DNA of 64,000 nt from Candidatus Peribacteraceae bacterium (GTDB taxonomy: Bacteria > Patescibacteriota > Gracilibacteria > Peribacterales > Peribacteraceae). The stretch spans positions 1 to 64,000 of the forward strand of contig JAQVMB010000004.1 in NCBI GenBank assembly GCA_028703835.1, given 5' to 3'. The first letter of the stretch is position 1; the number at the start of each line of letters is the position of its first letter. The notes under the pieces were generated by a model that was not told where the DNA came from, did not search any database, and saw only the letters and a program-made list of their open reading frames with translations. Shown in pieces: positions 1-16,483 of this stretch. The position numbers were made by a program, and so were the translations under genes.

Positions 1-105
1 CCCAAGGATACCTTCCATTTGTACCTCAAAGAGTGCGAATGGAGATTCAACAACGGCTCACCCAGAAATCTTCTCTTGTCTCTGCGGAAAATCCTCAATG
101 ACTGA
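1..105 (+). mobile_element. C-terminal fragment of IS1595/ISXO2-like transposase (truncated by window edge)
   Basis: Frame 1 translates PKDTFHLYLKECEWRFNNGSPRNLLLSLRKILND*, matching the ISXO2-like transposase C-terminus pattern (HxYxKExEWRFN). Confidence 0.7.
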
Positions 106-129
106 AAAAAGTCCTAGGCCAGCCCCATA

Positions 130-600
130 AATTATGTTAGGGATATAGACACATTGCATTGGACGTTATCAAATGAGTTTAGTGAAAAAACAAACGCAGT
201 TGAAGGGATTATTACCGCTGATAAGTACGACAGCTTGATAAAGGAATGGAAGGCGGAAGAGGCTGCACTTTTGGAGAAATACAAGGTCACAGCGATGCCA
301 ACCAAGCCTTCCTGATTTCTGTTCTTACCTGTTGGAACTGCTGCAACGCGCATCCGACCTCTTCGCACGTTCGCAGGCCACTCAAAAGAACCGTTTGCTG
401 CGTTTTATTGTTGCTAACTGTTCCATGAAGGACGAAAAGCTTATCCCCAAGCTGAAAAAGTGTTTGAGGGTATTGTTGAAAGTAACAAAACGAAGAAATG
501 GCTCTCATCCCTCTACAAAGTTCGAGATCGGATCACTGAAACTTGGCAGGGGATGGAGAGGGCGTTTTCTCTGCTTCAAGGAGCGGTCAATTAGTACTGC
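130..600 (+). pseudogene. Decayed serine recombinase C-terminal region
   Basis: Fragments in different frames: ...EKTNAVEGIITADKYDSLIKEWKAEEAALLEKYK... and LELLQRASDLFARSQATQKNRLLRFIVANCSMKDEKLIPKLKKCLRVLLK, resembling the C-terminal segment of large serine recombinases. Confidence 0.5.
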
Positions 601-756
601 ATTCTCTTCGAAATCGCAACAAAATGCACGATCAGTGCCATGGTCAGTACGAACCTCTACGCCATACACGTACGTGTTGGGTTCGCCGTCGAAAACGGCG
701 ATGCCGATGCGTGGACGAACGACCTTGTGGCGGGAGGAAGAACAAGGTTGTGCTGG

Positions 757-1425
757 CTATGACGGGTTTTCATCAATAATTTTTCCCTTCGCTTTCAGGA
801 TCCCTTCGACTGTTTCCCGATCGTCATAGAAGTCCTCAAGTACACGCTGCGCGTAACCATGTGCCATCTCTACTTCTTCATCCGTCACCTGTCTCCAATC
901 ATCATGTACCACTTCGTTGCCGAGCACTCTGATTTCCTCGTGTGCCCTCTTCTTACGCACCTCGGTTAGCACGCCGTCCTTCGCTGCCGCGTCAATTTTT
1001 TGGTGCAACTTTCCGTCCGTGTATCCGTTTGATTTCAGCACCTTCTCCAGCACTGAACGAAACATTGCCGATGCAGCTCGATTTGCGCCTGCTGAGGCAC
1101 ACAGTTCCGCCTCTCGGAACTCAGCATCGATGCCAGCAGGGATTCCATTCGGTAATTTGAGTGAGTTGATAGAACGTGGAAAAAAATCGATCAGTATGTC
1201 GTGATTTCCACCGCAGACGGCTGCAATCCCACCTCTGCCACACCCGGCGCAGCGCAGAAGTTTGTAAGTCGCTTCTGGATACGTCTGATTGCCATGACGA
1301 TGAGAACGAACGCACCGAATGTTCCCAAACTCTCTATGGCCATCTGATACTTCGAAAGTCGTCACTGCTCCGTTGCAGTCAGGACATCTCGCGCGGACAT
1401 TTGAATGATGGAGGGTTGGTTGCAT
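757..1425 (-). CDS. DUF4145 domain-containing protein with N-terminal Cys motifs
   Basis: 222 aa; FREAELCASAGANRAASAMFRSVLEKVLKSNGY...LHQKIDAAAKDGVLTEVRKKRAHEEIRVLGNEVVHDD is DUF4145-like; CxxC pairs at N-terminus. Confidence 0.75.
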   Translation of the reverse strand: MQPTLHHSNVRARCPDCNGAVTTFEVSDGHREFGNIRCVRSHRHGNQTYPEATYKLLRCAGCGRGGIAAVCGGNHDILIDFFPRSINSLKLPNGIPAGIDAEFREAELCASAGANRAASAMFRSVLEKVLKSNGYTDGKLHQKIDAAAKDGVLTEVRKKRAHEEIRVLGNEVVHDDWRQVTDEEVEMAHGYAQRVLEDFYDDRETVEGILKAKGKIIDENPS

Positions 1426-1492
1426 GGTTGCATTATGCTCTTTTTGTTCGCTGATCCCAAACAGCCTTCATCTGTGATAGAGAACGGCAATT

Positions 1493-2413
1493 TCAATACT
1501 TCTTCAGCGCCTGCTTCGCCAGCATGAGCGCGTAGGGAATGTCCTCTTGCTCCTTCACCCAGAGCCACGAAATGTGTTGGCCGTAGTATTTCATGCTGTT
1601 CTTGACCTCCTTGACCCGCTTCTGTGGGTCTTTGAAATCGCGTGGCTGCGAACGGGGGAAGTTCAGGGTGATGCCCCCCTTGTACACGTGAAGCGAAAAT
1701 ACGTTGTCCCCGTTCAGTTTGATGCCGATGTAGTACTTGACGGGCTTCACCGCAAAATCGGGATGCAGCTTCAGCAACTCCGGGAACAGTTCATCGAACA
1801 GCTCCCGGCTCTGCGTCCACTTGGGCTTGAAGTGACTGTCCACGGAGTAGCTCTTCACTTCCTTCTGTACCTGCTGGGCTTCCTTGGTAAGGCTCATTTG
1901 TGGGAGGGCGGCCTTGGCTGCGGTCTGGAGGCGGTTCAATGCGAGGATGCCCTTTTCGTGTCGTCGAATTTCCCACAGTTGAAACGGCATGTTCTGGAAG
2001 CCGACGGCTTCCGTCTGGTAGACGTTGAATGATGGCGCGATAAAAATCACCTGCGACGCTTCCCAATTGATGTCTGCGATGTCGCAGTTCTTCCCACCGC
2101 ACTTCTGGAACTTGAGTACGAAATCCGCCTTATTGTTGAGGAGGAGCGAAAGGTAGGAAAACCCTTGATCCACGACCGACCAGCTCCCGCCATTTTTGTA
2201 TTCAATGATGACGAAACTCTTCTGCTCGGGATCGTAGGCGAGGGTGTCGATGCGAAGGTGATTGTGCGGGGCGAACTCGCTCGCCACGAACTGAAGGCCG
2301 AAGAGTTCCGGAAGTTGACTCTCCACGAGCTGCTGCATTTCCTTTTCCTGTTTGAATGGAGCTTCCTTCAGGCGGGAAAAACTCCCAGTGAGCGTGAAGA
2401 GTGACATGGGCAC
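1493..2413 (-). CDS. DUF5655-like / predicted PD-(D/E)XK nuclease-type protein
   Basis: 306 aa; RIDTLAYDPEQKSFVIIEYKNGGSWSVVDQGFSYLSLL nuclease-like core and C-terminal DUF5655-like domain. Confidence 0.6.
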   Translation of the reverse strand: MPMSLFTLTGSFSRLKEAPFKQEKEMQQLVESQLPELFGLQFVASEFAPHNHLRIDTLAYDPEQKSFVIIEYKNGGSWSVVDQGFSYLSLLLNNKADFVLKFQKCGGKNCDIADINWEASQVIFIAPSFNVYQTEAVGFQNMPFQLWEIRRHEKGILALNRLQTAAKAALPQMSLTKEAQQVQKEVKSYSVDSHFKPKWTQSRELFDELFPELLKLHPDFAVKPVKYYIGIKLNGDNVFSLHVYKGGITLNFPRSQPRDFKDPQKRVKEVKNSMKYYGQHISWLWVKEQEDIPYALMLAKQALKKY

Positions 2414-2599
2414 ATCATTCCATGATGCACCATCAATTCCTAGCCCTTCCTAGCCCCGTAAGAGGGTTATAGAGCGTTACAGGTACCATTCCACTTTCAT
2501 GGCTGTATCAACGCCATAACTCATTTTTGTGGCGTCCAGAAAAAATCAGATCGGCGGATTCCGCACTGCTGCTCTATACTCTCCAACGATTCTCCACTC

Positions 2600-5005
2600 G
2601 TGCACAGTATGTCGAATACCAGAAACGAGGCGTTCTCGCGCATCCTCATTGACGCCGCCCTTCGAGAGGGCGGATGGAAGCTCGAGGATTCTCAGCAGGT
2701 GCAGTTTGAATTCCACACCTCCGGGAAGCGTGCGGACTACCTTCTGAAGGATTCTATGGGTAGGGTCCTTTGTATCTTGGAGGCGAAGGGAGAAGACCAC
2801 GATCCCTATGACGCCAAGGAACAGGCTCGCGGCTATGCGGAGAACCTCAAGGCTCCTTTCGTCATCCTGTCGAACGGTAGCGAGCATTGGTTCTGGAACT
2901 ATGAACGCGCCGATCAACGCGATGCTTACCGCATCGAACGCCTGCCCTCGCGACAGGATATGGAACGCTTGCGGATGAAGAATCTCCAACCTCCGCGCCC
3001 GCTTGGAAGCGAAGTCATTGCGCCGGACTTCCTGCGACATCTGAAGAGCGACATCATGCTGCGGCGGTACCAAATCGCGGCGATGGACAAGATTGCGGAA
3101 CCGTTCGACGGGCAGGGTCAACGAAAGTTCCTCCTCGAAATGGCTACAGGAACGGGCAAGACGCTCCTCTGCGCCGCCCTTATCCGTCGCTTTCTCATCA
3201 CCCGGAACGCCGAGCGAGTTCTGTTCATTGTTGATCGCATCGAACTTGCCAAGCAGACCATGGAGGATTTCGCAGTTGTCCTGCCGGAGTTCAAGCCCGT
3301 TATCTTCAAGACGGCGCGGCGCAGTGGCGAACTGCTCGGCTCCTCCGTCGTTGTCGCCACGATCCAATCTCTCATGACCGACCGACGCTACCGCGAGGAG
3401 TTCACGCCCTTCTATTTCGATCTCGTCATCAACGACGAGGCGCACCGCTCAATTTACGGCGATGCTCGGGAGGTGGTGCAATTCTTTCAGGCAACACGCA
3501 TCGGCCTCACCGCAACGCCCAAGGCATACCTGAAGAACATCAACGTGGAACAGTTGGCGGAAGAGAACCCCAAGGCACTGGAGGCGCGGCAATTACGGGA
3601 CACGTATCACTATTTCGGCTGTAAGCCGGGCTTCCCGACGTATCGCTACGACATCATCGACGCCGTGAAGGATCCCGAGGGGCCGTTTCTTTGCCTTCCA
3701 AAGATCTTCGACCTCCGTTCCGACATCACGACGCAGGCGCTCGCTGACTCCGGCTGGTCGGTGTACATCAACGAGCAGGAGGAGAGCTTCAAGATTCAGG
3801 ATTTGGAGCGAAAAATCTTCACCCCGGATCGCAACCGTCTCATGTGTGAAGCATTTCTGAAGGAAGCGCAACGAGATCCTGAGAACAACATCGGAAAGTC
3901 CATTATTTTCGCGGTGAATCAAACGCACGCCACCAACCTGACGAAGATGTTCAATGCCTTGCAGCCGGGCATCGCGATGACCATTACCTCGCGCATTCCG
4001 GAGGCATCCACGCTTGCCAAAGAGTTCCGCGACGGTAAACGCAAGGAGCGCATTGCCGTCTCCGTGGACATGCTCTCGACCGGCTACAACTGCCGCGACC
4101 TCCTGAACATTGGCCTCATGCGTCCCATCTTTTCGCCGACGGAGTACATCCAGGTCAAGGGGCGTGGCACGCGCCGCTTCACGTTCAAGGTCGGCAATAC
4201 TGCCTACGAAAAATCTTGTTTCTTCCTCCTCGACTTCTGCGCCGTGGCCGAGTATTTCGAGGAGAAATACGATTATTCGCAACCGCTCGCTGTACCGAGA
4301 GAACGCGACAAGAAAGCGAGGAAGTCTTCACCGATAACGGGCGCAGTCGATGTGAGCAGCCCCGCCGGGACGGAGACGGGGGCAACAACTGGAGGAAATA
4401 AGGAGATACCGACGTGGGTTGGAACGGATATGCTGGTGAGCAGAGAAATTCATGTCGTCGGACCCAATGGTGAGAAGGTGGACGTGATGACCTACCGGGG
4501 TAGTTACGAGAATGACATCCAGAAGTTTGCGGAGACGACGCCGGAACTGAAGGCTGCCGTGGATACGGAAGATGACGATGCCATCGAAATCATCGTCAAC
4601 GAACGCTTCTACAACCGTCCGGAGATGTTCTACTCCCCGGACAAGCTCATTCTTTCCTATGGAGTGCCTGCGACGACTTCCGCGTTCGTCTACAACGCGC
4701 TAGGCAAACGGCCGCTCCCGACCAAAGACGACATTATTGACGACACGGTGGAATCCATTGCTGCGCGTTTCGATCTCAGATATAACGAACAGAAATGGCT
4801 AGAAGCCACCACGCAACTCCTCGCGGAAGATCCGCAGGTTCTTCGCCGTTTCATGAAGGGCGACATGACGATCTTCTCCGCAAGTCAGTTCAACCCTCTC
4901 GGCGGCATCAACAGCCTCGCTCGGTTCGAGCGTCGCGACGAAGTGTTCGATGCACTGCGTCAGTCCACACTTGTCCGGCAAACTCTCCTCGCCGCCGCTT
5001 CCTGA
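2600..5005 (+). CDS. hsdR: Type I restriction endonuclease subunit R (EcoEI-like)
   Basis: 801 aa; EAKGE nuclease motif, LLEMATGTGKT Walker A, NDEAHRS DEAH-type box, GLTATP, GRGTRR motif VI. Confidence 0.93.
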   Translation: MHSMSNTRNEAFSRILIDAALREGGWKLEDSQQVQFEFHTSGKRADYLLKDSMGRVLCILEAKGEDHDPYDAKEQARGYAENLKAPFVILSNGSEHWFWNYERADQRDAYRIERLPSRQDMERLRMKNLQPPRPLGSEVIAPDFLRHLKSDIMLRRYQIAAMDKIAEPFDGQGQRKFLLEMATGTGKTLLCAALIRRFLITRNAERVLFIVDRIELAKQTMEDFAVVLPEFKPVIFKTARRSGELLGSSVVVATIQSLMTDRRYREEFTPFYFDLVINDEAHRSIYGDAREVVQFFQATRIGLTATPKAYLKNINVEQLAEENPKALEARQLRDTYHYFGCKPGFPTYRYDIIDAVKDPEGPFLCLPKIFDLRSDITTQALADSGWSVYINEQEESFKIQDLERKIFTPDRNRLMCEAFLKEAQRDPENNIGKSIIFAVNQTHATNLTKMFNALQPGIAMTITSRIPEASTLAKEFRDGKRKERIAVSVDMLSTGYNCRDLLNIGLMRPIFSPTEYIQVKGRGTRRFTFKVGNTAYEKSCFFLLDFCAVAEYFEEKYDYSQPLAVPRERDKKARKSSPITGAVDVSSPAGTETGATTGGNKEIPTWVGTDMLVSREIHVVGPNGEKVDVMTYRGSYENDIQKFAETTPELKAAVDTEDDDAIEIIVNERFYNRPEMFYSPDKLILSYGVPATTSAFVYNALGKRPLPTKDDIIDDTVESIAARFDLRYNEQKWLEATTQLLAEDPQVLRRFMKGDMTIFSASQFNPLGGINSLARFERRDEVFDALRQSTLVRQTLLAAAS

Positions 5006-5013
5006 TTCTCTCT

Positions 5014-6531
5014 ATGCCATCCGTCCCGCCCTCCGTTGCCGCGCAAAATCTCTCGTCGAATTTTTTTTCCTCGGGTTTACGGCAGAAAGTGGATCACCTC
5101 ATGGACATTCTCTATTCCGGTGGTGTGAACAACCCGATGGACTCAATCGAACAGATTTCCTACCTGTTCTTCCTCCGCCTGCTCTCGGAGAAAGACGAGA
5201 TCCACGCCAGTTTGGATAAGAAGTACGAACGCATCTTCTCAGGCAAGTGGGCACGCTTCGCCTGGGGTAATTTCGTCACACTGAACGGTGATGAACTCTT
5301 CAATGCAGTGCGTGACGCCATTGAGAGTCTCCATGACCTGCCCGGCCTTACCGAAACGGGAAAACTCCTCTTTAGCCGCGCAACGCTCAAGATTTACGAA
5401 CGTCCGACCCTCCGTGCCGTTGTACAGGAGATCAACGCACTTCAACTTTCGGTTCAAGAGGGCCACGACGTGAAGGGTGATATGTACGAGTATCTTCTGA
5501 GTAAGCTCGCAGCTTCCGGTACAAACGGCCAGTTTCGCACCCCTCGCCACGTCATTGACCTCATTGTCGCTCTCGTGAACCCGCAGCCGGGCAACCGCAT
5601 CTGTGACCCGGCGTGCGGCACTGCGGGGTTCTTGATCTCGTCCTTCACTTACATCTTGCGCCACCACACGAAGCCCGCAGATCTCACGCGAGGCATTCTG
5701 GACGGTTCCCTTCTCAAGCCCGCCCAGTGGAAGTTCATCGAGGAGCAGGCGTTCACGGGGTTCGATAACGATGCAAACATGGTGAAGATCGCCATCCTCA
5801 ACCTGTACCTCCACCAGCTGGAGAAGGCGCGGATCCAGCTCCTGAACCCTCTCACGACGGGATTCGGCGGCGTGTACCCCGGCCAGCAATTCGATGTGAT
5901 CCTTGCAAATCCGCCGTTCGCCGGGAAAGTGCAGGACGAGAGCATCCTGAGTGACCTCAACTACAAGCTGAATACCCACGCCACGGAGCTGCTGTTTCTC
6001 AAGTGGTTCATTGACCACCTCGCTCCGAACGGACGTGCAGGTGTGATCGTGCCAAACGGCGTCCTGTTCGGTTCCAACAAGGCAGCCACGGCTCTGCGGG
6101 AGCTGCTTCTCACGGAGTGCGACCTGCAAGCTCTTATCAGTTTTCCGAGTGGCGTCTTCAAACCGTACTCGGGCGTGGGTACCGCGGCGCTCATCTTCCA
6201 AAAAGGGAAGCCGACTGAAAATGTGTGGTTCTACGACCTCACTGCCGATGGCTACAGCCTCGACGACAAGCGCACCCCGGTACAGGCGAATGACATCCCG
6301 GACATCCTCGCCAAGTGGCCGGAGAAAGAGGAAGGACCGAACAGCTACCGCGTACCGATAGAGAAGATCAAGGAGAAGGATTGGAGCCTTGCGGCGGGAC
6401 GGTACAAGCAGGTCCAGACGGAGGCTGTGAATCACGATGCGCCTGCGGACATCCTGCGCGATGTTTTGAAGCTGGAGAACGACATCATCCAGCACGGCAG
6501 CGCGCTGCTCGCGCAAGTTACCAAGATGTAA
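5014..6531 (+). CDS. hsdM: Type I restriction-modification N6-adenine methyltransferase subunit M
   Basis: MPSVPPSVAAQNLSS start; DPACGTAGFL and NPPF motifs; ORF track start 4795 is too far upstream because it overlaps hsdR. Confidence 0.93.
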   Translation: MPSVPPSVAAQNLSSNFFSSGLRQKVDHLMDILYSGGVNNPMDSIEQISYLFFLRLLSEKDEIHASLDKKYERIFSGKWARFAWGNFVTLNGDELFNAVRDAIESLHDLPGLTETGKLLFSRATLKIYERPTLRAVVQEINALQLSVQEGHDVKGDMYEYLLSKLAASGTNGQFRTPRHVIDLIVALVNPQPGNRICDPACGTAGFLISSFTYILRHHTKPADLTRGILDGSLLKPAQWKFIEEQAFTGFDNDANMVKIAILNLYLHQLEKARIQLLNPLTTGFGGVYPGQQFDVILANPPFAGKVQDESILSDLNYKLNTHATELLFLKWFIDHLAPNGRAGVIVPNGVLFGSNKAATALRELLLTECDLQALISFPSGVFKPYSGVGTAALIFQKGKPTENVWFYDLTADGYSLDDKRTPVQANDIPDILAKWPEKEEGPNSYRVPIEKIKEKDWSLAAGRYKQVQTEAVNHDAPADILRDVLKLENDIIQHGSALLAQVTKM

Positions 6532-7667
6532 TGACAAGCGGCTTGAAAAAGCTCGGCGATGTTGCAGATGTTCAGATGGGGCAATCTCCTCCGGGTGATA
6601 CATACAACACTGAAGGTGATGGTTTGCCATTCTTTCAGGGTAAAGCAGAGTTTGGGGAAGATACTCCTACAAAAGCCAAGTGGTGCAGTAGTCCGTCACG
6701 CATAGCTGAGGCTGGCGACATACTTTTGTCTGTACGAGCTCCAGTGGGACCAACAAACTTCGCGACAGAACGTTGTTGTATCGGACGCGGCCTTGCCGCA
6801 ATCCGTGCAAAGCCGCAACAGTGCAATCAGCATTACATACGTTATTACCTCCGACGCTTTGAGACTGAAATTGCTGCGCGGGGTGTTGGCAGCACCTTTG
6901 CCGCAATTGGACGAAAAGATGTCGAAGGGTTGTTGTTACCCGTTCCTTCACTGCCTCAGCAGGAGCGCATTGTGAAACTGCTCGACGAAGCGGACGCATT
7001 GCGGAAGCTCCGGGCGCAAGCGGACCAGCGCACCGCCGTGCTCATCCCCGCGCTGTTCCATGAGATGTTTGGGGATGAGTCATTTCCAGAAAGACCTCTT
7101 ATCGAATTGGTAGATCAGAGCCGAGGCATTTCATACGGTGTTGTGCAGAGAGGGAATCACTTCCCAGGAGGCGTACCGCTTGTTCGTATTTCAGACTTCG
7201 GAAACAACATCTTTGAGCCCAAGGATATAGTTTCGGTTGAACCAAACATTTCGGCGAAGTATCAGAGAACAGTGCTTGTTGGAGGAGAATTGATTGTAAG
7301 TATTCGTGGCACTGTAGGGCGTGTAGCCATTGTTCCTGCAATGGCCAAGGGGTGGAACGTGGCTCGTGAGGTCGCAGTCATCCCTTTGCTTCATGATGTT
7401 TCGCGCCCCTTTTTACATTCGTATCTGCTTTCTTCCTTCGCGCAGAATTTCATTACAGGGGAAATCCGTGGCATCGCACAGCGTGGGATAAACCTTGAGG
7501 ATTTGCGTCGTTTGCCCGTACCACAACCACCAAAATTGCTTCAGGAGAAATTTGCTGTTCGTCTGGAAGAAATTCACCGGATGGAATCCAATCAGATTTC
7601 TCGTGCTCAGCGGCTAGAAGATCTGTTCCTGTCGATACTGCATCGGGCATTCGCCGGAGAACTATGA
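6531..7667 (+). CDS. hsdS: Type I restriction-modification specificity subunit S
   Basis: Start overlaps the hsdM stop; two target-recognition domains with PSLPQQERIVKLLDEADALRKLR central repeat. Confidence 0.9.
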   Translation: MTSGLKKLGDVADVQMGQSPPGDTYNTEGDGLPFFQGKAEFGEDTPTKAKWCSSPSRIAEAGDILLSVRAPVGPTNFATERCCIGRGLAAIRAKPQQCNQHYIRYYLRRFETEIAARGVGSTFAAIGRKDVEGLLLPVPSLPQQERIVKLLDEADALRKLRAQADQRTAVLIPALFHEMFGDESFPERPLIELVDQSRGISYGVVQRGNHFPGGVPLVRISDFGNNIFEPKDIVSVEPNISAKYQRTVLVGGELIVSIRGTVGRVAIVPAMAKGWNVAREVAVIPLLHDVSRPFLHSYLLSSFAQNFITGEIRGIAQRGINLEDLRRLPVPQPPKLLQEKFAVRLEEIHRMESNQISRAQRLEDLFLSILHRAFAGEL

Positions 7668-8494
7668 TTGGCAGCCTGCAAAAGAACTGGCAGATGAGCT
7701 GGCGCGAAGTGTGGGCGAAGCTTGCAAATTCAGCACTTGCACCATCCGATCTGTTCATTCAGTTGCACGATTCTGTTTTGCCGCATCTTCGAGAGCAGCC
7801 TGCACTTGCAGATTATGAAGTTATTCACAACGATTCGGCACGTGCACGTCGAGCTTTCCAGCAGTTGAAAGGAAGCGATTTCAAGGGCGAATCAGAAATC
7901 GTGAGCTTCCTGGAAGAAGCAAAAGTAACGATTGCTGATTTTGGGAAACCACGTTTTGAAGAACGGTATGTCCAACTCATTACTATCTTTCTTGCAAAAT
8001 ACAACCTCCGGTATCGCGTCTCAGATCCTTTCAAGCTTCAACTAAAGCTTTCGGGAGTATTCGCTGGTCTCTACGCCGAATTGGAGGAATTGAACCGCAC
8101 GAATCCCGATCTTGCGGAATCAATGAGTGATTTCGAACATGCGTTCGATACCTTTGCTCGCACGCGCAGACAGGCTGACTTGAAGGGATGTATTGCAAAG
8201 GCAAGTCTCTATACGGAAGAGCTCGCAGGCGTTGCGGCAGGTAGAAGCGGTGCGCTTGGAGGACTTTGTGATCGTTTGACGTGTTGGCCCCATGTTACGG
8301 TCAAAGAAGCACTGAAAAAACTTTACGGGTTTTGTTCTGATTACCCCGGCATTCGTCATGCAGGAAATAGGAGCGCCCAAATACGGCGTCTTGATAGTCG
8401 CGATGCGGTCTTGCTCTGCACTTTATTCATATCATTCTCTGGATTTTTACCCGACACAATCCGGACGGATGAGCTATTTGGGGTCGTGCATTGA
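7664..8494 (+). CDS. Hypothetical R-M-associated protein; C-terminus weakly resembles abortive-infection/HEPN-like C-terminal domains
   Basis: 276 aa; ATGA 4-nt overlap with hsdS; C-terminal YPGIRHAGN...RRLDSRDAVLLCTLFISFSGFL. Confidence 0.7.
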   Translation: MIGSLQKNWQMSWREVWAKLANSALAPSDLFIQLHDSVLPHLREQPALADYEVIHNDSARARRAFQQLKGSDFKGESEIVSFLEEAKVTIADFGKPRFEERYVQLITIFLAKYNLRYRVSDPFKLQLKLSGVFAGLYAELEELNRTNPDLAESMSDFEHAFDTFARTRRQADLKGCIAKASLYTEELAGVAAGRSGALGGLCDRLTCWPHVTVKEALKKLYGFCSDYPGIRHAGNRSAQIRRLDSRDAVLLCTLFISFSGFLPDTIRTDELFGVVH

Positions 8495-8503
8495 GATTCA
8501 ATT

Positions 8504-8722
8504 CTATTTCAATCGTATTCTGCGTTTCTTTGGCTTGCGCAGTTTATTCAGACGTATTTCCTGAAATGCGATTACATCGCTTTTGAGAAAAACCATTCGA
8601 GAGGCAGTCTTCTTGTATCGGAGCTTTCCGGCTCGGGCAAGACGGTCGACGTACTGGCGGGAGACGCGAAGATACTTCGCCACGTCACCCATGCCCATGA
8701 TTTCGGGGAACTGATCAGCCAT
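8504..8722 (-). CDS. Excisionase/MerR-like helix-turn-helix protein
   Basis: 72 aa; MGDVAKYLRVSRQYVDRLARAGKLRYKKTASRMVFLKSDVIAF. Confidence 0.7.
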   Translation of the reverse strand: MADQFPEIMGMGDVAKYLRVSRQYVDRLARAGKLRYKKTASRMVFLKSDVIAFQEIRLNKLRKPKKRRIRLK

Positions 8723-8772
8723 AGCGTGAGTTCTTGACCTTTCACGCTATCTCCTGAAGACTATATGGAGAA

Positions 8773-8799
8773 GGTGTCCTATGACACCTAGTTGTCATA
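8773..8799. promoter_or_regulatory. Overlapping inverted repeats in the divergent intergenic region
   Basis: GGTGTC-CTAT-GACACC (8773-8788) overlaps TATGACA-cctagt-TGTCATA (8780-8799). Confidence 0.4.
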
Positions 8800-8817
8800 C
8801 AGCTACCCCTCTCTATC

Positions 8818-9249
8818 ATGCCCGATTCCCAGACAAAGAAATGTCCTATGTGTGCGGAGGAGATCAAGGTCGACGCGAAGAAATGCAAACATTGCGGCGA
8901 GATGCTGAATAATGACGGGCATGAAACTTCTTTGAAAGTTGAGAGCAGTAATACAGCGAAGAAAACGCCATATTTGAAAGCACTTCTTGGCTGCATCATG
9001 ATGGGTATCATGTTTATCGTTATCGGCGTCCCGCTTTCCCCACTTATAATCGGTGTGCCCGTATTTCTTTTTGGCGTTTTCTGCGTTGTAGCCAGCCCTG
9101 TTCTTGCGCTGTATATGTACGAATCAAAATGCCCCCTGTGTAAGGGGGCTGTCCGTTGGTCGGGCTTCCGTCACGCAGTGAAGTGCCGTCATTGTAAACA
9201 AAGAAGTTTGATACGTGACATGAAGCTGATTCCAATGAAAGTCGCCTGA
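8818..9249 (+). CDS. Zinc-ribbon membrane protein
   Basis: 143 aa; CPMCAEEIKVDAKKCKHCGE zinc ribbon, two TM helices, second CPLC...CRHC ribbon. Confidence 0.7.
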   Translation: MPDSQTKKCPMCAEEIKVDAKKCKHCGEMLNNDGHETSLKVESSNTAKKTPYLKALLGCIMMGIMFIVIGVPLSPLIIGVPVFLFGVFCVVASPVLALYMYESKCPLCKGAVRWSGFRHAVKCRHCKQRSLIRDMKLIPMKVA

Positions 9250-9321
9250 ATTAACTTTGGACTTGTCTGACAATCAATGTGGCACTGTCCAAATTCAAAA
9301 TATATTTTCTGACTTGAGCAA

Positions 9322-9337
9322 ATCGCCTATAGGCGAT
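9322..9337. promoter_or_regulatory. 16-bp perfect palindrome ATCGCCTATAGGCGAT upstream of the RarA-like/recombinase gene pair
   Basis: Direct reading of the sequence. Confidence 0.35.
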
Positions 9338-9409
9338 GCTGTCATGCTGCTGGGCGAAGCTAAAACATTCTCATATTGACCCGCAATCGGCATCAAGCAC
9401 GATCAAGAT

Positions 9410-9712
9410 GTGCAACAAAGAGAAGTGAGAAAGAGCGGCCTCCGCATTATTGAAAGTGTGTTCCATGCCGTTCTGGACAATGATGACAAGAATCTCTGGA
9501 AACGTGCGCTCTCGACGATGCAACGCCGAATTACAGAACTGGAGTGCAGGGTACGGAGGGAAGCGGCGGCAGGCAGTGAGGACGCAAATTTTCTTGTGAC
9601 AGAGTTGTGGGCGTGGAATTCGGCGAGGCGGCAGCTCGCCGCACGTTTTGGCAAAAAGTACATTATCCCTTTCCTCCATTCCCATGAAGAAACCGCAGAC
9701 CAGTCTCTTTGA
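9410..9712 (+). CDS. Hypothetical protein
   Basis: 100 aa ORF upstream of and overlapping the next gene; GTG start; no recognised motif. Confidence 0.4.
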   Translation: MQQREVRKSGLRIIESVFHAVLDNDDKNLWKRALSTMQRRITELECRVRREAAAGSEDANFLVTELWAWNSARRQLAARFGKKYIIPFLHSHEETADQSL

Positions 9713-10385
9713 AGGCACGGAGCACGACCCGAAGCCCAAGCATTTCTATAACCGCTACGACCTCGTGAGCTACCTCCTGAAGTCTATCCGCCTGAACCGC
9801 AAGGAGGACGCGCTGTCGGGCATGTGGTGCCTCCTCCGCGAAGGGGTGGGGCAGTGGTACATCGCCAAGAAGCTGACGCAGTTTGCGAGTGAGGACGCGG
9901 TGGGGGCAGAGGCGTTCATCTATGCCCAAGGAGTGTTCCAGCTCATCAAGGATGTGACGGACGAGGTGAACAGCCTCTCGCGGCTCATCCTGTACCTCTG
10001 TGACGCTCCGAAGATATGGGAGAATGAGAAGGAGACGGAGTGGGAGGTCAGGAGGATTCACCTGCGGGAACGAATCAGGAGGTGCTACGAACGCGGGGAG
10101 AAGCCCGTGGAGCTGCCCGGCTACGTCTTTGACGTGTACACGGCCAAGGGAAAGGCGGCGTCGCGCAGGGGCGAGAAAATAGACCGCAGGGTGAGCGGGG
10201 TTTTGGAGGGAAGCGGGTTGTTCTGCCGTGCGGCATTCTTGAAGCACGGGCGACTGGATCCCAACGACACGACGGTCGCCCAGGCATACGGGAAGCACCT
10301 GTTGAAGTGCGCTAAGGAGGGTCTGCATGTGGACGCGTTCCTGCGGAAGCACGGCCTGACCGTCGATGAGTTCCTGAAACCATGA
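9684..10385 (+). CDS. Orphan protein resembling the RarA/MgsA C-terminal (tetramerization) domain
   Basis: MKKPQTSL...; YLLKSIRLNRKEDALSGMWCLLREGVGQWYIAKKLTQFASEDAVGAEAF...LILYLCDAPKIW resembles the KSIRGSxxDAALYWxARMLxGGxDPxxIARRLxxxASEDIG...YLAxAPKSN pattern of RarA C-termini; no AAA+ domain present. Confidence 0.6.
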   Translation: MKKPQTSLFEGTEHDPKPKHFYNRYDLVSYLLKSIRLNRKEDALSGMWCLLREGVGQWYIAKKLTQFASEDAVGAEAFIYAQGVFQLIKDVTDEVNSLSRLILYLCDAPKIWENEKETEWEVRRIHLRERIRRCYERGEKPVELPGYVFDVYTAKGKAASRRGEKIDRRVSGVLEGSGLFCRAAFLKHGRLDPNDTTVAQAYGKHLLKCAKEGLHVDAFLRKHGLTVDEFLKP

Positions 10386-11296
10386 ATACTCTTCTCCTAC
10401 CCGCTCCGGCAGTACTCCCTCCCGACCTCGCGGACTACGTTCATCCGTTCCTCGTTCAGCTGGATTCGCTGAAGACGCGGGACGATTACCGCAGCGAGTT
10501 GAAACTGTTCGCCACGTGGTTCGGCAACCAGCTCCAACAGGTCACGTCGCTCGATCTCATCGCGTATCGAAAGACACTGGAGGAGCGAGGTCTGAAGTCT
10601 GCAACGATTCACAAGAAGCTCTCGGTACTCCGGAGCTTCTTCACGTTCGTTGCGCAGGCGTTCGGTCTCTCGAATCCAAGTCTCTGCGTACGCCTCCCGA
10701 AGGTCACGGACGAAAGCACGAAGGCCGTTCTCAGCCTCCAAGAAGTCGGCAGGCTGCTTGCAGCCGTTGACCCACGCACGGACCTTGGACGACGCGATCT
10801 CGCAATCCTTGGGCTGCTTCTCGTGAACGGGCTGCGCACCTGCGAGGTGAGCCGTGCGAGCATCGGGGACATTCACGAAGTGGAGGGCTTCACCGTCCTG
10901 CGGGTTCATGGAAAGGGCGAGAAAATCGCAGACGCGAAGCTGCGGGAAGACGTGCATGGCGCGATACGGGCGTATTTGGAGACGCGGCAGGATTTCTGTT
11001 CAGAAGATCCTCTCTTTTTAGCCGTAGGGAACCTCGGGAGGGGGAGGATCAGCGCGAAGACAGTGCAGGCAAGGGTGCGTCACTACCTACGGCTTGCGAG
11101 TATCCAGAAACCGAACCTCACTGCACACAGCCTCCGACACACGTGCGCGGTTCTCACACTTTCGATTGGCAAGGCGGATCTCGTCCAAGTCCAGCGGCTG
11201 CTTCGGCACAGCGACCCGAAGGTCACAATGCGATACGTGCAATCGCTGGACTGGTTGCGAGATAACGCTGTAGACAGAAACCCGATCACTATTTAG
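10382..11296 (+). CDS. Tyrosine recombinase (XerC/D-like)
   Basis: 304 aa; R-HxLRH-H-Y catalytic set (NGLRTCEV, HSLRHTCA, LLRHSDPKVTMRYVQ); ATGA overlap with preceding gene. Confidence 0.92.
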   Translation: MNTLLLPAPAVLPPDLADYVHPFLVQLDSLKTRDDYRSELKLFATWFGNQLQQVTSLDLIAYRKTLEERGLKSATIHKKLSVLRSFFTFVAQAFGLSNPSLCVRLPKVTDESTKAVLSLQEVGRLLAAVDPRTDLGRRDLAILGLLLVNGLRTCEVSRASIGDIHEVEGFTVLRVHGKGEKIADAKLREDVHGAIRAYLETRQDFCSEDPLFLAVGNLGRGRISAKTVQARVRHYLRLASIQKPNLTAHSLRHTCAVLTLSIGKADLVQVQRLLRHSDPKVTMRYVQSLDWLRDNAVDRNPITI

Positions 11297-11456
11297 TGCC
11301 GCCGGGTCTATATCCATACGTGCCACAGTTTTCGTACATACGAGACACAGCTTCTGCTGCCTTGTCTGCACTCATGTCTTCTTTGAGTACATTGTAGAGT
11401 TCCAAAAACCCTTTGTTGCCAACATAATATATTTCGGGATGTGGGACATCAGCCAT
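11289..11456 (-). CDS. Small hypothetical protein
   Basis: MADVPHPEIYYVGNKGFLELYNVLKEDMSADKAAEAVSRMYENCGTYGYRPGGTK. Confidence 0.4.
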   Translation of the reverse strand: MADVPHPEIYYVGNKGFLELYNVLKEDMSADKAAEAVSRMYENCGTYGYRPGGTK

Positions 11457-11553
11457 GATTGTGAAGTGGAAAAGAAGTAAATACTCACCCAACGTTCTAC
11501 TGGCCAAACAATGAACAAGAAGCGGGGAGCACTTTGCCCCCCGCCCCAGACCG

Positions 11554-11778
11554 CTATCCCTTTGGAGGATAAGGGTCTGGCTTGCCGTAAGTATTGCGCT
11601 CACGGATCTTGCCGTCCCTGCCGTGGACGATTGCGTCGCCACCCTGATTTTCGGCAATCTCTTTCGCACCGTCGATTGCCTCCTTCTGGGTGTCATGGCG
11701 AGAGGTATCTCGTTCATTACCCTCGCCCCGCACTGCCCACGTGCCGTCTGGACGTTGCACAACGTGTTGGTTGGCCAT
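11554..11778 (-). CDS. DUF2188 domain-containing protein
   Basis: 74 aa; HVVQRPDGTWAVRGEGNERDTSRHDTQKEAIDGAKEIAENQGGDAIVHGRDGKIRERNTYG. Confidence 0.8.
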   Translation of the reverse strand: MANQHVVQRPDGTWAVRGEGNERDTSRHDTQKEAIDGAKEIAENQGGDAIVHGRDGKIRERNTYGKPDPYPPKG

Positions 11779-12053
11779 GGCCGTAGATGGTAAGGAGCTA
11801 AAAGTTTTGCCATGGCCCCGAGAACCTGCTTCAATGATCCTGCTAGGGAATCATGTCCGCGCTAGGTAAGGACGGGTGGCGGTCTTGGCGATTGCCCGTC
11901 CTTTCTAATGGCAGATTTTTAGCTTCATAGAGCCAAGGTAAAAAATATCGTCCCTAATGCTACTCCGCGGAAAGAGAAATTGCAAAATAACTTGCGCTCC
12001 ATTTTGCTATATGCAACAATCCAGACATTCGATATCTTGCCCCCAAGCTGTAT

Positions 12054-12884
12054 ATGGACGACAACATGAAAAAAAATCTGGGCAGACGGATCAAGGAGCA
12101 ACGAGAGAAGCTCGGATGGTCGCAGCTTGAGTTGGCACAGAAAGTTGGAAAATCTTCCCCTGCGTACATCGCGCTCATCGAATCGGGAGATCGGAATATC
12201 AGTTCGATGGATTTGATGCTCATTTCAAAACACCTCAAAACTCCTGTTGCTGAACTGGTCGGAGAAAAAGAAAGTGAGTTGACCCTTCGTCAGGCATTGC
12301 GAAAGACAAAGGATATGACTGAACAAGATAAAGATAAGATCGAAGCATTTTATGGTTTTATAAAAAATAAAGACCGATCAGCCGATGAGGAAGATATAAT
12401 TGGAGATGCTACAAAACCGCGAACAAATTGGGCTCGTGAACAGGCAAAAGAGTTGAGAGAGCAACATGGTAATAATCAAATCCCTGTTCAACTGAATGAC
12501 ATAATTAGCGCACTCGGCATACCAGTACAAAAAGCTGAGCTCAGTATTGATGGCATAGCGCAGATGGATAACGAGGGTACAGCCTTTATTATGTACAACT
12601 CAAAAGCTCCTGAAGTGCGACAGCGATTTACTGTTGCTCATGAGTTAGCACATATTGTGTTGGAGCACATAGGCATCGGAGAAAGCAGTCAGTTATCGAA
12701 TAAATCTCAGGAAGCGGAAGCCAATGCTTTTGCTAATGAACTGCTTATTCCAGTCATAGACTTGAAGGAGTTCATGAAAACGAAACGTAATGTTGAAGAA
12801 GTTGCTACAAGATATTGGGTTAGCAATGATGCTGCTTTACTGGCGGTTATGAATAATCGTTTATTTGCAAAAATAAAGGAATAA
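12054..12884 (+). CDS. XRE-family HTH regulator fused to ImmA/IrrE metallopeptidase domain
   Basis: N-terminal HTH (LGWSQLELAQKVGKSSPAYIALIESGDRNIS) plus VAHELAHIVLEH zinc-peptidase motif. Confidence 0.9.
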   Translation: MDDNMKKNLGRRIKEQREKLGWSQLELAQKVGKSSPAYIALIESGDRNISSMDLMLISKHLKTPVAELVGEKESELTLRQALRKTKDMTEQDKDKIEAFYGFIKNKDRSADEEDIIGDATKPRTNWAREQAKELREQHGNNQIPVQLNDIISALGIPVQKAELSIDGIAQMDNEGTAFIMYNSKAPEVRQRFTVAHELAHIVLEHIGIGESSQLSNKSQEAEANAFANELLIPVIDLKEFMKTKRNVEEVATRYWVSNDAALLAVMNNRLFAKIKE

Positions 12885-12885
12885 T

Positions 12886-13338
12886 ATGGATCAGCTTCTA
12901 CTCAAAAAAGAGGCCAATGCCGCAACTCGCATGTACTTGTTTGAGCATTTCAAGGAAATCGACAACGAGCGTACGAAGGCATCTTACTTGCTGGCGTTCG
13001 AGGGTTTGATTTTCACCAGTTTGCTTCAATGGATGCAGCCTGCGCCACTTTGGTGTAAGACGGGCTTCGTGATTCTTGCTGTACTCGCACTCATTGCCTC
13101 AGTCGTTCACTTATTCTTCCCCAATGCAGCGGCATTGTACGGAGATTACGGGGGAGTCTTCGCAGCAAAAACCGACCCTGAGTATATGCTCAATACAGAG
13201 TTCCAATCACTTCAGAAACAAAGAGGAGAGGCCATGAGAATTGCGGCGCATTCTCGACACTCGAATCAGGTCGCGTTCCTGCTACTCGTCGCATCACTTG
13301 CATTTCCTCTTACATACTTTTTCCTCCCCTCAGCATGA
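12886..13338 (+). CDS. Small membrane protein, possibly DUF5706/PycTM-like
   Basis: 150 aa; KEIDNERTKASYLLAFEGLIFTSLLQWM and later TM helices; follows the XRE-ImmA gene directly. Confidence 0.5.
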   Translation: MDQLLLKKEANAATRMYLFEHFKEIDNERTKASYLLAFEGLIFTSLLQWMQPAPLWCKTGFVILAVLALIASVVHLFFPNAAALYGDYGGVFAAKTDPEYMLNTEFQSLQKQRGEAMRIAAHSRHSNQVAFLLLVASLAFPLTYFFLPSA

Positions 13339-13451
13339 ACTTCCATGATGAAGGAGACGACGATCAGCCGTCTTCCGAAGCGGAGCCATCGTCTCAGCTT
13401 CCCGTCCAGCCCTACATCACTATTCGTGGTTCGGAACATGAAACGAAATAG
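13335..13451 (+). CDS. Small acidic peptide (38 aa)
   Basis: MNFHDEGDDDQPSSEAEPSSQLPVQPYITIRGSEHETK*; ATGA overlap with upstream membrane protein. Confidence 0.35.
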   Translation: MNFHDEGDDDQPSSEAEPSSQLPVQPYITIRGSEHETK

Positions 13452-13749
13452 TGTGGTTGCCCTTGCCCCTAATCCCTCTACTAGGCAATAACCTTGGTCT
13501 GTACTCAAGGAGAGTTTTGAAAAAATGAGGTCGCTCTGCGAAGCGATAAATGAATCTTAGTTGTCCAAAGTTTTCAAAAGTTGTCCAAGAAATGGCTTCG
13601 ATAAGCCAAAAACACTGGCCGTTCAGATTGAAAAGAATACCATGCAGCAGTATTGGTCGATTTCGACGATGAGCACTTGATCCGATGGAGACTGAATAGG
13701 GATTGGTTGAGTTGGTTGCGAAGGCGGCGCCTCAGAGTGAGCAGCCTCT

Positions 13750-14508
13750 GTGGCTCCACCCTCGCAACCCCCAATAGACCGATCTGACAGACTCATCAGA
13801 AAGAGCAGTGCGCAGGCGGCAATCAGACCCTATGTAAATAGGTTCTCTGCTGCCCACTTGAACGCTGCTCACGATCTTCCATCGGCTTCCGAAAATATGA
13901 ATGGGCTCTGCCGAGCACTGTATTCCTTCGTTTCCGAGATAGGCAGACAGCGTGATCTCTGTATCCGACATCGTTTCACGACAGCCATCCATACGAAGAG
14001 TAAGGAGTTGGGGGTGTACAGGATGTACGGCAGGGAAGAGGAGGCCATCAAATACCTTCGGGATGCTGCCAGCTCATTGCCTCCGTGGGAGGAAGCGGCA
14101 TTGTTCGATTGGGAAGGCGTGAAGTGGAACAAGGTGAAAGCCCAGATTGACCGCCGAGTCGGGCGTCACAAGGAACTGGAACCCGTCGTCAGCCGTGGCG
14201 TGGCGTGGAAGGGGAACCCTGTCGCTATCCATGCGTACAAGTTTGAAGTCGAACGATTTTTCAAAATTGAGTTGGAAATGTTGGGCGAGACCGCCCGACA
14301 ACCGGAACGTGCACTCAAGACGATGGCAGAGGCGTTGGAGTGCCACGATTTTCTGATCCCCGAAGCCGTGGCGAAGCCCAAGGCTCCCTACACGAAACAC
14401 GAAGCCGCTTTTCTGACGATCGACGAGTACCTCTCTCGCAAATTGCCGCCGGACATGTACGCTCTTTATTCACTCCCACAGCCCGCGGATTCGAAGCGGG
14501 CGACTTGA
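13750..14508 (+). CDS. Hypothetical protein (start uncertain; the real start may be internal)
   Basis: 252 aa ORF; ordered region from MYGREEEAIKYLRDAASSLPPWEEAALFDWEGVKWNKVKAQ onward. Confidence 0.45.
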   Translation: MAPPSQPPIDRSDRLIRKSSAQAAIRPYVNRFSAAHLNAAHDLPSASENMNGLCRALYSFVSEIGRQRDLCIRHRFTTAIHTKSKELGVYRMYGREEEAIKYLRDAASSLPPWEEAALFDWEGVKWNKVKAQIDRRVGRHKELEPVVSRGVAWKGNPVAIHAYKFEVERFFKIELEMLGETARQPERALKTMAEALECHDFLIPEAVAKPKAPYTKHEAAFLTIDEYLSRKLPPDMYALYSLPQPADSKRAT

Positions 14509-14538
14509 CCGTGTTTATATTTCCTCCCCAACATTTTT

Positions 14539-16164
14539 ATGACCAAGGCTGCCCAGCCCCCGAAGAATGTCCGCGTTGATGTTTACTACGGTCGGAAATC
14601 GACCGGTTACAAAACTGATGAACACGAAGAGGAGCAGAACGAACGTTACGATCACGATAAACAAGCACGCTCCTTACCGAAGCAAAAACGTGCGTTTGAA
14701 GAAATGTACGCACAGCTTCCTTCGGGAGAAAGGTCGCATGAACTCATCCGTATCGAGGAGGCGAAAAGTGGTTACAGGCCAGGGAAGAGAGAGGGGTATA
14801 AAGAAATTATTGAAATTGCAGACACTCGGAAGATAAACCGTTTGTATTTCAATGAAACGCGCCGCATCGCTCGCAATCCGGAGGAGTCAGGTAAAATCGC
14901 ACAGCGATTGTCGGACGGCAGAATTAATGAGATCGTCATGATGAACGGTAGACGTTTCCAGCAGGGGGATAGTGCTCAATTATTACTGTTCCTGATCGAG
15001 GGTGGAGTCGGCTGGATGGAGAGCGCCGATAAGGGGAAAGATGTGAGTCAGGGTATGTTGGACAAAGCGAAAGAAGGTGGCAGCACAGGATGGGCGCCAA
15101 TCGGTTACATGAACGTGGCAGACAGGATGGGGAAGAAAAAATGGATTGAACCCGATCCCGAGATAAGCCCCAAGGTGAAGAGGCTGTTTCTTCTGGCTGC
15201 AACGGGAGCTTATTCTTTGGAGTCCTTGGAAGTGGAAGCGAAGAAATTGGGACTTCGTACGCGCCCGACCATTCGCCACCCGGAGGGATTGCATCTTGGA
15301 CGGACGACCATTCACCAAATGCTAAAGAATCCGCACTACAAAGGAAAAAAACGATACAAGGAACAAGAATACTCCGGACAGCATGTACCAATCGTCGATG
15401 CCGAAACTTGGAACAAGGTACAATTCGTTCTCTTGGGTCGTTGCACGAACACCGATAGGCCGCAGAAATTGACGTTGAGGGAGTTGTTCGTGATGTCGGG
15501 CTGTCTTCGGTGCGGGCACTGCAAAGTACGTAGCATGTCGCCCTACAAGGTCAAAAAAGGACGGTACATTATGTATGAATGCAAAAATCCAAAGACGAAA
15601 TGTCGCAACTGCATCAACCAGAAGGATCTCCTGAAGCAGTTGGAGGATTCGTTGGATTGCCTCAGGTTCAATGACGACGAGTACGAGTACATGCGCCGCA
15701 CACTGAAAGATGTTCACGAACAGGAATCCAAACATCAGATCGACGAGCGCAGGGCTCTTGAGGTCGAATGCCAACGTGTCGAACAACAGATCGCGGATGT
15801 TTTCATGAACATCGAGGAGGCACGTCGCCAAGGCGTCTACGACACGGTCAGTATGAAGTTGGCACAACTCCGTATGCGCCGGGACGAACTGAAGTTCGCC
15901 CTCGATGCACTCTTCGACGAAGGAGACAAATGGATTGATCACGTGGTCAGGTGCTTCGAACTCGTCAAACTGGTTCAAAGAGCCATCCAAGTGGGGTCAC
16001 CCGAAATTCGACAGGCTGTTTTGAAATCGTTGGCTTCGAACTACTCCATAAATCACGGGAAGCTAGTTGTGGACTGGCTTTCCCCGTTCAAGGAGAAGGT
16101 CGAAAACCCTGATCGTACAATATGGCTCCCCCGGCTGGATTCGAACCAGCGACCTTGGCGTTAA
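14539..16164 (+). CDS. Large serine recombinase; 3' end lies inside tRNA-Asn (antisense)
   Basis: 541 aa; resolvase-like N-terminus, recombinase domain, Cys-rich zinc ribbon (CLRCGHCK...CKNPKTKCRNC), coiled coil; C-terminus RLDSNQRPWR is translated from the tRNA. Confidence 0.85.
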   Translation: MTKAAQPPKNVRVDVYYGRKSTGYKTDEHEEEQNERYDHDKQARSLPKQKRAFEEMYAQLPSGERSHELIRIEEAKSGYRPGKREGYKEIIEIADTRKINRLYFNETRRIARNPEESGKIAQRLSDGRINEIVMMNGRRFQQGDSAQLLLFLIEGGVGWMESADKGKDVSQGMLDKAKEGGSTGWAPIGYMNVADRMGKKKWIEPDPEISPKVKRLFLLAATGAYSLESLEVEAKKLGLRTRPTIRHPEGLHLGRTTIHQMLKNPHYKGKKRYKEQEYSGQHVPIVDAETWNKVQFVLLGRCTNTDRPQKLTLRELFVMSGCLRCGHCKVRSMSPYKVKKGRYIMYECKNPKTKCRNCINQKDLLKQLEDSLDCLRFNDDEYEYMRRTLKDVHEQESKHQIDERRALEVECQRVEQQIADVFMNIEEARRQGVYDTVSMKLAQLRMRRDELKFALDALFDEGDKWIDHVVRCFELVKLVQRAIQVGSPEIRQAVLKSLASNYSINHGKLVVDWLSPFKEKVENPDRTIWLPRLDSNQRPWR

Positions 16165-16197
16165 CAGCGCCCTGCTCTACCGCTGAGCTACAGGGGA
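16123..16197 (-). tRNA. tRNA-Asn (anticodon GTT), CCA encoded
   Basis: Reverse complement TCCCCTGTAGCTCAGCGGTAGAGCAGGGCGCTGTTAACGCCAAGGTCGCTGGTTCGAATCCAGCCGGGGGAGCCA; acceptor TCCCCTG/CGGGGGA pairs; anticodon loop CTGTTAA. Confidence 0.93.
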
Positions 16198-16378
16198 ACG
16201 AGGAGTTGATGATGTGATGGAAGGATCAGAGAACTGAGCTACCCCCCTTCGCTCCTGCGGAGCTACGGCGGGGCAGGCAGGGGAACGAGGAGTTGATGAT
16301 GTGATGGAAGGATCAGAGACTGAGCTACCCCCCTTCGCTCCTCCGGAGCTACGGTGGGGCAGGCAGGGGAACGAGGAG
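16191..16378. repeat. Two ~87-bp tandem repeats plus a partial third copy, carrying pieces of the tRNA-Asn 5' end
   Basis: Copies begin CAGGGGAACGAGGAG at 16191, 16278 and 16364; each contains ctgagctac and a cttcgctcc...ggagctacg palindrome. Confidence 0.85.
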
Positions 16379-16483
16379 TCAGATAATGAACCCAAAGAAC
16401 GTACGTGCAGTATAGGGAATTTTCCGTTTCTGGCTAGTGGTAGAGACGCATGGCCGTCCGCTCTCTTACAGGGGCCTGCTTGC

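Follow-up and report, generated by a model that had tools for sequence, protein, structure and literature searches.

The window analysed here is a stretch of 64,000 nucleotides from a Candidatus Peribacteraceae bacterium (assembly GCA_028703835.1, contig JAQVMB010000004.1, positions 1 to 64,000), whose genome of 1.34 Mb is 98.5% complete. The contig begins inside a genomic island, in which the following features were identified:

2600-7667, + strand: type I restriction-modification cargo (PADLOC REase_I, MTase_I and Specificity_I)
2600-5005, within 4795-6531 and within 6315-7667, + strand: the HsdR-like, HsdM and HsdS genes of this system, respectively
9410-9712, + strand: 100-aa ORF that overlaps the tail gene by 29 bp; syntenic in locus L159 (63% identical, dN/dS 0.18)
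9684-10385, + strand: stand-alone RarA C-terminal-domain (MgsA_C-like) protein of 233 aa, the tail, defined by profile, structure and selection evidence
Residues 21-110 of the tail: helical core
Residues 145-156 of the tail: RarA-like P-x4-D-x2-T-x2-G segment
10382-11296, + strand: intact tyrosine recombinase of 304 aa (Pfam PF00589, 1.1e-20)
12054-12884, + strand: HTH and M78 (IrrE-like) peptidase regulator, located after the pair and before the serine recombinase gene; L159 has similar DNA
14539-16164, + strand: large serine recombinase (Pfam Resolvase/Recombinase), the likely island integrase, whose 3' end runs into the tRNA gene
16123-16197, - strand: tRNA-Asn (gtt), the island integration target, with host-like G+C beyond it

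The initial annotation described the product at 9684 as a protein of 234 aa; the open reading frame is real and its length is 233 aa, with a TTG at 9648 as a possible alternative upstream start. The TGA stop of the tail gene overlaps the ATG of the recombinase gene (ATGA at 10382-10385), which bears out the translational coupling that had been noticed. The 100-aa ORF has no Pfam match and runs into the beginning of the tail gene, and the three genes therefore probably form an operon, with this ORF first, followed by the tail and the recombinase. Matches to two candidate defence families lie beside the type I restriction system, PDC-S18 (4e-84) at 1493-2413 on the - strand and PDC-S32 (6.5e-10) at 7664-8494 on the + strand.

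The core of the window protein is confirmed as a homologue of the RarA/MgsA C-terminal domain, with a similarity beyond chance. Using phmmer, residues 24-110 match the structures 3bge (E=0.011) and 3pvs (E=0.088), weakly but in the correct place, and RarA proteins of the phylum match the window tail down to E=2.7e-8. The identity had been proposed from the sequence alone and holds up in profile searches, where a 50-member family profile matches RarA-type structures only, at 6.7e-19 (2r9g) to 7e-14. When the window sequence was left out of the family HMM, the search still recovered the tail ORF at 1.2e-16 and no other ORF of the window. Pfam MgsA_C (PF12002) alone misses the window tail protein itself; it matches 44 of the 50 family members, and relatives from the phylum reach 3e-14 (L046) and 4e-12 (L047). 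The profile phrog_16866 matches the window protein at 0.0038 and, in the family alignment, 47 of 50 members at 0.001.

Structural comparison agrees with the profiles. The AlphaFold core of the window tail (residues 21-110) has a pLDDT of about 95, and every one of its 19 best PDB matches in Foldseek is a RarA tail, with RFC collars ranking next; with the better model of the homologue L132 (=L046), RarA tails fill the first 21 places. T4 gp62 is absent among the 50 matches listed, in which RarA tails rank first and RFC collars next. The tail thus resembles the C-terminal domain of RarA/MgsA (WRNIP1) (PF12002; 3pvs, 3bge, 2r9g, 8g28) in its helical-domain fold and in sequence. The orphan tails differ in having neither AAA+ ATPase nor lid, in a diverged C-terminal half, and in their location in mobile islands and phages, whether or not a chromosomal RarA is present.

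An AAA+ ATPase domain with Walker motifs was not found in the window protein and there was no Pfam AAA match, as the initial annotation had stated, and the protein is therefore not classed as a RarA. Upstream of the tail gene no AAA+ motif or remnant was detected, the host RarA giving only matches with E of at least 0.46 in tblastn against the first 16.3 kb. A full RarA of 464 aa is encoded on another contig of the same genome (G000:C23), and only 29% of its residues are identical to those of the window tail. The domain stands alone, as in the stand-alone MgsA_C family of phages and mobile elements (PHROG 16866), with proteins of about 180-320 aa.

The adjoining recombinase carries the R-K-H-R-H-Y catalytic set (R152, K181, H249, R252, H276 and Y285); when ten paired recombinases are aligned, K181 is nearly invariant and the other five residues are invariant. 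Domain order and catalytic residues are shared with XerC/XerD and plasmid-borne tyrosine recombinases (TIGR02225, 131.6 bits), but the window enzyme lies far under the NCBIfam equivalog cut-offs of about 330 bits (XerD 131.6 vs 329.6 bits, XerC 120.1 vs 335.15 bits), and the paired enzymes are joined to a RarA tail and occupy branches of their own. On plasmids, distant relatives of the recombinase adjoin DnaB-like helicase genes. An invertible hsdS or other inverted-repeat switch near the recombinase was considered and rejected, positions 1-16300 of the window showing weak, scattered repeats only.

The evident integrase of the island is a different enzyme. The large serine recombinase runs into the tRNA-Asn gene, around which G+C changes from 0.42-0.60 on the left to mostly 0.57-0.67 on the right, and the same layout is found at six other loci, with tmRNA (L159), tRNA-Glu (L161), tRNA-Pro (L162), tRNA-Lys (L163), tRNA-Ser (L164) and tRNA-Gly (L049). 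L164 holds a 6.7-kb element that carries the serine recombinase as well as the recombinase and its short tail and is bounded by a perfect 19-bp repeat copying the tRNA end, and in L049 10.4 kb are enclosed by a 16-bp att repeat; no att repeat was found for the window island. Because the serine recombinase lies at a tRNA or tmRNA gene and the att repeats enclose the whole unit, the tyrosine recombinase is evidently an internal module. These islands, which end at tRNA or tmRNA genes with a serine recombinase, agree with the earlier assignment of the pair to a mobile element. Positions 16191-16379 of the window, adjoining the tRNA-Asn gene, hold a tandem duplication of ~87 bp (97% identical, 103 columns). 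Small recurrent proteins were also seen in the islands (L163:5626-5880 and L046:7438-7683), one of them a DUF5659 protein.

The same gene pair, for which a search in other genomes had been suggested, recurs across the phylum. Samples of Patescibacteria genomes, drawn at phylum and class level, were searched for orphan tails with phrog_16866, which gave no match in any of 14 control genomes. A tyrosine recombinase directly adjoins the tail in 10 of the 14 orphan-tail loci examined, a count that leaves out several weak phrog hits (e.g. G445 and G497). In eight loci the tail precedes the recombinase (window, L046, L047, L159, L160, L161, L162 and L163), with stop and start overlapping or nearly abutting and several junctions reading ATGA; the order is reversed in L164 and L165, where the tail is short (134-140 aa), and in the remaining four loci (L048-L051) no tyrosine recombinase adjoins the tail. 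A scan of genome contigs for the tail returned the query's own locus alone.

Searching from the recombinase side, a profile run over 287 genomes gave four matches at or below 1e-93, the next coming only at 1e-41; two of the four belonged to the query profile, the independent ones being only G219 and G178. Three of these four loci have a tail, the new one being L199 with a divergent tail of 313 aa, and the family recombinase L198 (G178) has no detectable tail. With L199 included, the pair is present in 11 of 15 orphan-tail loci, for which the chance probability is about 2e-10 under a crude model with one recombinase per locus. Examination of 26 ordinary Xer loci turned up no tail. Searches of open-licence literature on MgsA_C, PF12002 and RarA with tyrosine recombinases yielded no account of the pairing, which does not prove its novelty more widely.

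Two further observations concern the DNA of these loci. L164:5910-7289 and L165:3019-4398 are 90% identical across two genera, and the similarity stops at the limits of the recombinase/short-tail unit, which looks as though it had moved by itself. Several pairs have the motif AACAGRGGTAA in their promoter region (L046:7780, L199:6377, L164:5794, L164:5902 and L164:5957), with two exact copies and one near-copy in L164, one of each in L165, and near-copies in L160 and L162; its counts were 18 against 2 control hits in 11 genomes. We do not claim it as a common recombination site, as neither the window nor L159 contains it and the genomes have further copies at other places.

The window tail is kept by purifying selection. 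It is 83% identical to the tail of L159 with a dN/dS of 0.089, and the two recombinases, at 65% identity and a dN/dS of 0.157, are less conserved than the tails. In the tail tree, the paired label changes at least four times, with phage tails, plasmid tails and RarA in between, long branches blurring the exact number. The recombinase tree places most partners in one clade and those of the window and L159 in a second, on a long branch, which leaves a separate origin of the window recombinase uncertain. The paired tails occupy four or more distinct branches of their family and the paired recombinases two, which suggests that the pairing has either been rebuilt or is very old; different tails have been joined to the same kind of partner.

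Coupling, recurrence and selection together argue for a joint function of tail and recombinase. Judged from the sequences, we lean towards a reading in which the tail would be an accessory subunit dedicated to the tyrosine recombinase encoded by the next gene, and by analogy with RarA this subunit is probably oligomeric. The protein is a RarA/MgsA tail minus the ATPase part, which would have been retained as a small helical protein resembling a collar, and the stop/start overlap would ensure that both proteins are made together. The tail would then form an oligomer on the model of the RarA tetramer, contact the recombinase physically, and assist in assembling or placing the four protomers of the recombinase at their two sites; it might also select the time or place of their action. 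The islands in which the module would ride are inserted at tRNA or tmRNA genes by another enzyme, the large serine recombinase.

Tyrosine recombinases are tetramers on two sites. RarA also functions as a tetramer (PMC8735627), and the two tetramers together make a synapse-ordering collar an attractive, if unproven, model. More tentatively, and with doubts that we consider substantial, an ATPase-less clamp-loader/RarA collar may have been repeatedly recruited as an obligatory oligomeric partner of island tyrosine recombinases, the tetrameric collar scaffolding the recombinase tetramer in a two-subunit site-specific recombination system. FtsK gamma, PepA and ArgR are accessory factors of Xer-type recombination, and offer a functional analogy as non-catalytic partners that activate or order a tyrosine recombinase synapse. 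Their folds are unrelated to that of the tail, and there is no clamp-loader-type collar among them.

Among the alternatives is the fork-targeting role that the initial annotation had named. The tail would then retain a contact of the RarA type, with SSB or the replisome for instance, and act as an adaptor that delivers the recombinase to replication forks, making recombination follow replication. The RarA family reaches the replisome through SSB or PCNA (PMC8735627), the distant plasmid relatives of the recombinase adjoin helicase genes as described above, and some phage tails lie within replication or modification regions. Such an adaptor is compatible with the accessory-subunit reading; as the explanation of the pair we rate it as unlikely, though worth keeping in view.

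We give a similarly low rating to the proposal that the tail serves the island on its own account, in counter-defence or gene regulation, and is merely co-transcribed with the recombinase. Its support comes from phages and plasmids, where stand-alone tails occur without a recombinase and the domain must therefore have other uses. Viral scans with the window protein alone or with two sequences returned no confirmed relatives; a scan with the Patescibacteria alignment A3 found relatives encoded on 373 contigs. All 80 viral loci kept from these (L052-L131, IMG/VR) encode stand-alone tails, of 179-321 aa, and none of the 80 has a tyrosine recombinase beside the tail. On 48 non-redundant phage contigs, a TAGT-type glycosyltransferase gene lies within 4 kb of the tail in 30 and a ParB-like gene in 26, the ParB-like label being taken from annotated phage relatives and sequence resemblance, with no Pfam match for the one protein scanned. 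On plasmids of Enterococcus faecium and Cetobacterium, the tail gene is placed in PTS operons, flanked by genes for an SIS/RpiR regulator and for PTS EIIC (L133:4935-5552 and L134:4938-5552). The partnership with the recombinase is thus one of several settings in which the RarA-tail domain is employed. Against independent cargo stand the repeated adjacency in separate tail lineages, the overlapping genes, the occurrence of both gene orders, and the absence of tails from the ordinary Xer loci.

A ParB-like gene, a TET-associated glycosyltransferase gene (PF20691) and a stand-alone tail recur together in diverse phage contigs (L052-L131, L032 and L137), and Microbacterium phage Paschalis has a similar annotated gene set. 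This neighbourhood is possibly linked to DNA base modification.

The initial annotation had also offered two roles for the tail that fare worse. One is that of a decoy, which would hetero-oligomerise with host RarA and titrate or poison it. Tail and host RarA have the C-terminal domain in common and the window genome does have a full RarA, but the two are only distantly alike, and the coupled pair is present in G342 and G432 (98% completeness each) where a full-length RarA is missing; G227 and G051 likewise have a tail and no full-length RarA (the four RarA-less genomes are 94-100% complete). A host-RarA decoy therefore fails as a general explanation, and we regard it as quite improbable.

The other role, that of a recombination directionality factor for island excision, is rated lower still. 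Some excisionase genes overlap the gene of their recombinase, as the tail gene does. However, in seven loci it is the large serine recombinase gene that overlaps the tRNA or tmRNA gene, with the tyrosine recombinase in the interior and the att repeats of L164 and L049 surrounding the whole unit; the serine recombinase being the evident integrase, an excision factor encoded with the tyrosine recombinase is very unlikely. The tail is moreover a 233-aa helical protein with a RarA-tail fold and not a small winged-helix excisionase. Decay of a full-length RarA gene, which the missing ATPase part might suggest, is ruled out by selection (dN/dS 0.09) and by the recurrence of the stand-alone form in all 80 viral loci examined, with no AAA+ remnant upstream and an intact host RarA elsewhere.

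What RarA does at the molecular level has yet to be settled (PMC8735627). That a mobile element retains the tail alone, tied to one enzyme and selected even without a host RarA, suggests a function of the tail by itself, which could be sought in a system as small as this pair. If the accessory-subunit reading is true, the tail would be a new type of tyrosine recombinase accessory protein and the pair a new, testable recombination module.

The stand-alone tails of phages (PHROG 16866 and 33349; DanielleIgnace gp90 and KellEzio gp78) have the same architecture as the window tail and differ from it in having no neighbouring tyrosine recombinase; gp90 of the Arthrobacter phage DanielleIgnace is 29% identical to the window protein over 191 columns. 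PHROG 33349 carries the label ATPase, and in many products of actinobacterial phages labelled AAA-ATPase or ATPase (MT889387 gp90, NC_031231 gp78, NC_047976 gp86 and others) only the RarA tail was matched. Those that were read are too short for an ATPase domain, and none is visible; many phage proteins named ATPase are thus RarA tails without an ATPase domain.
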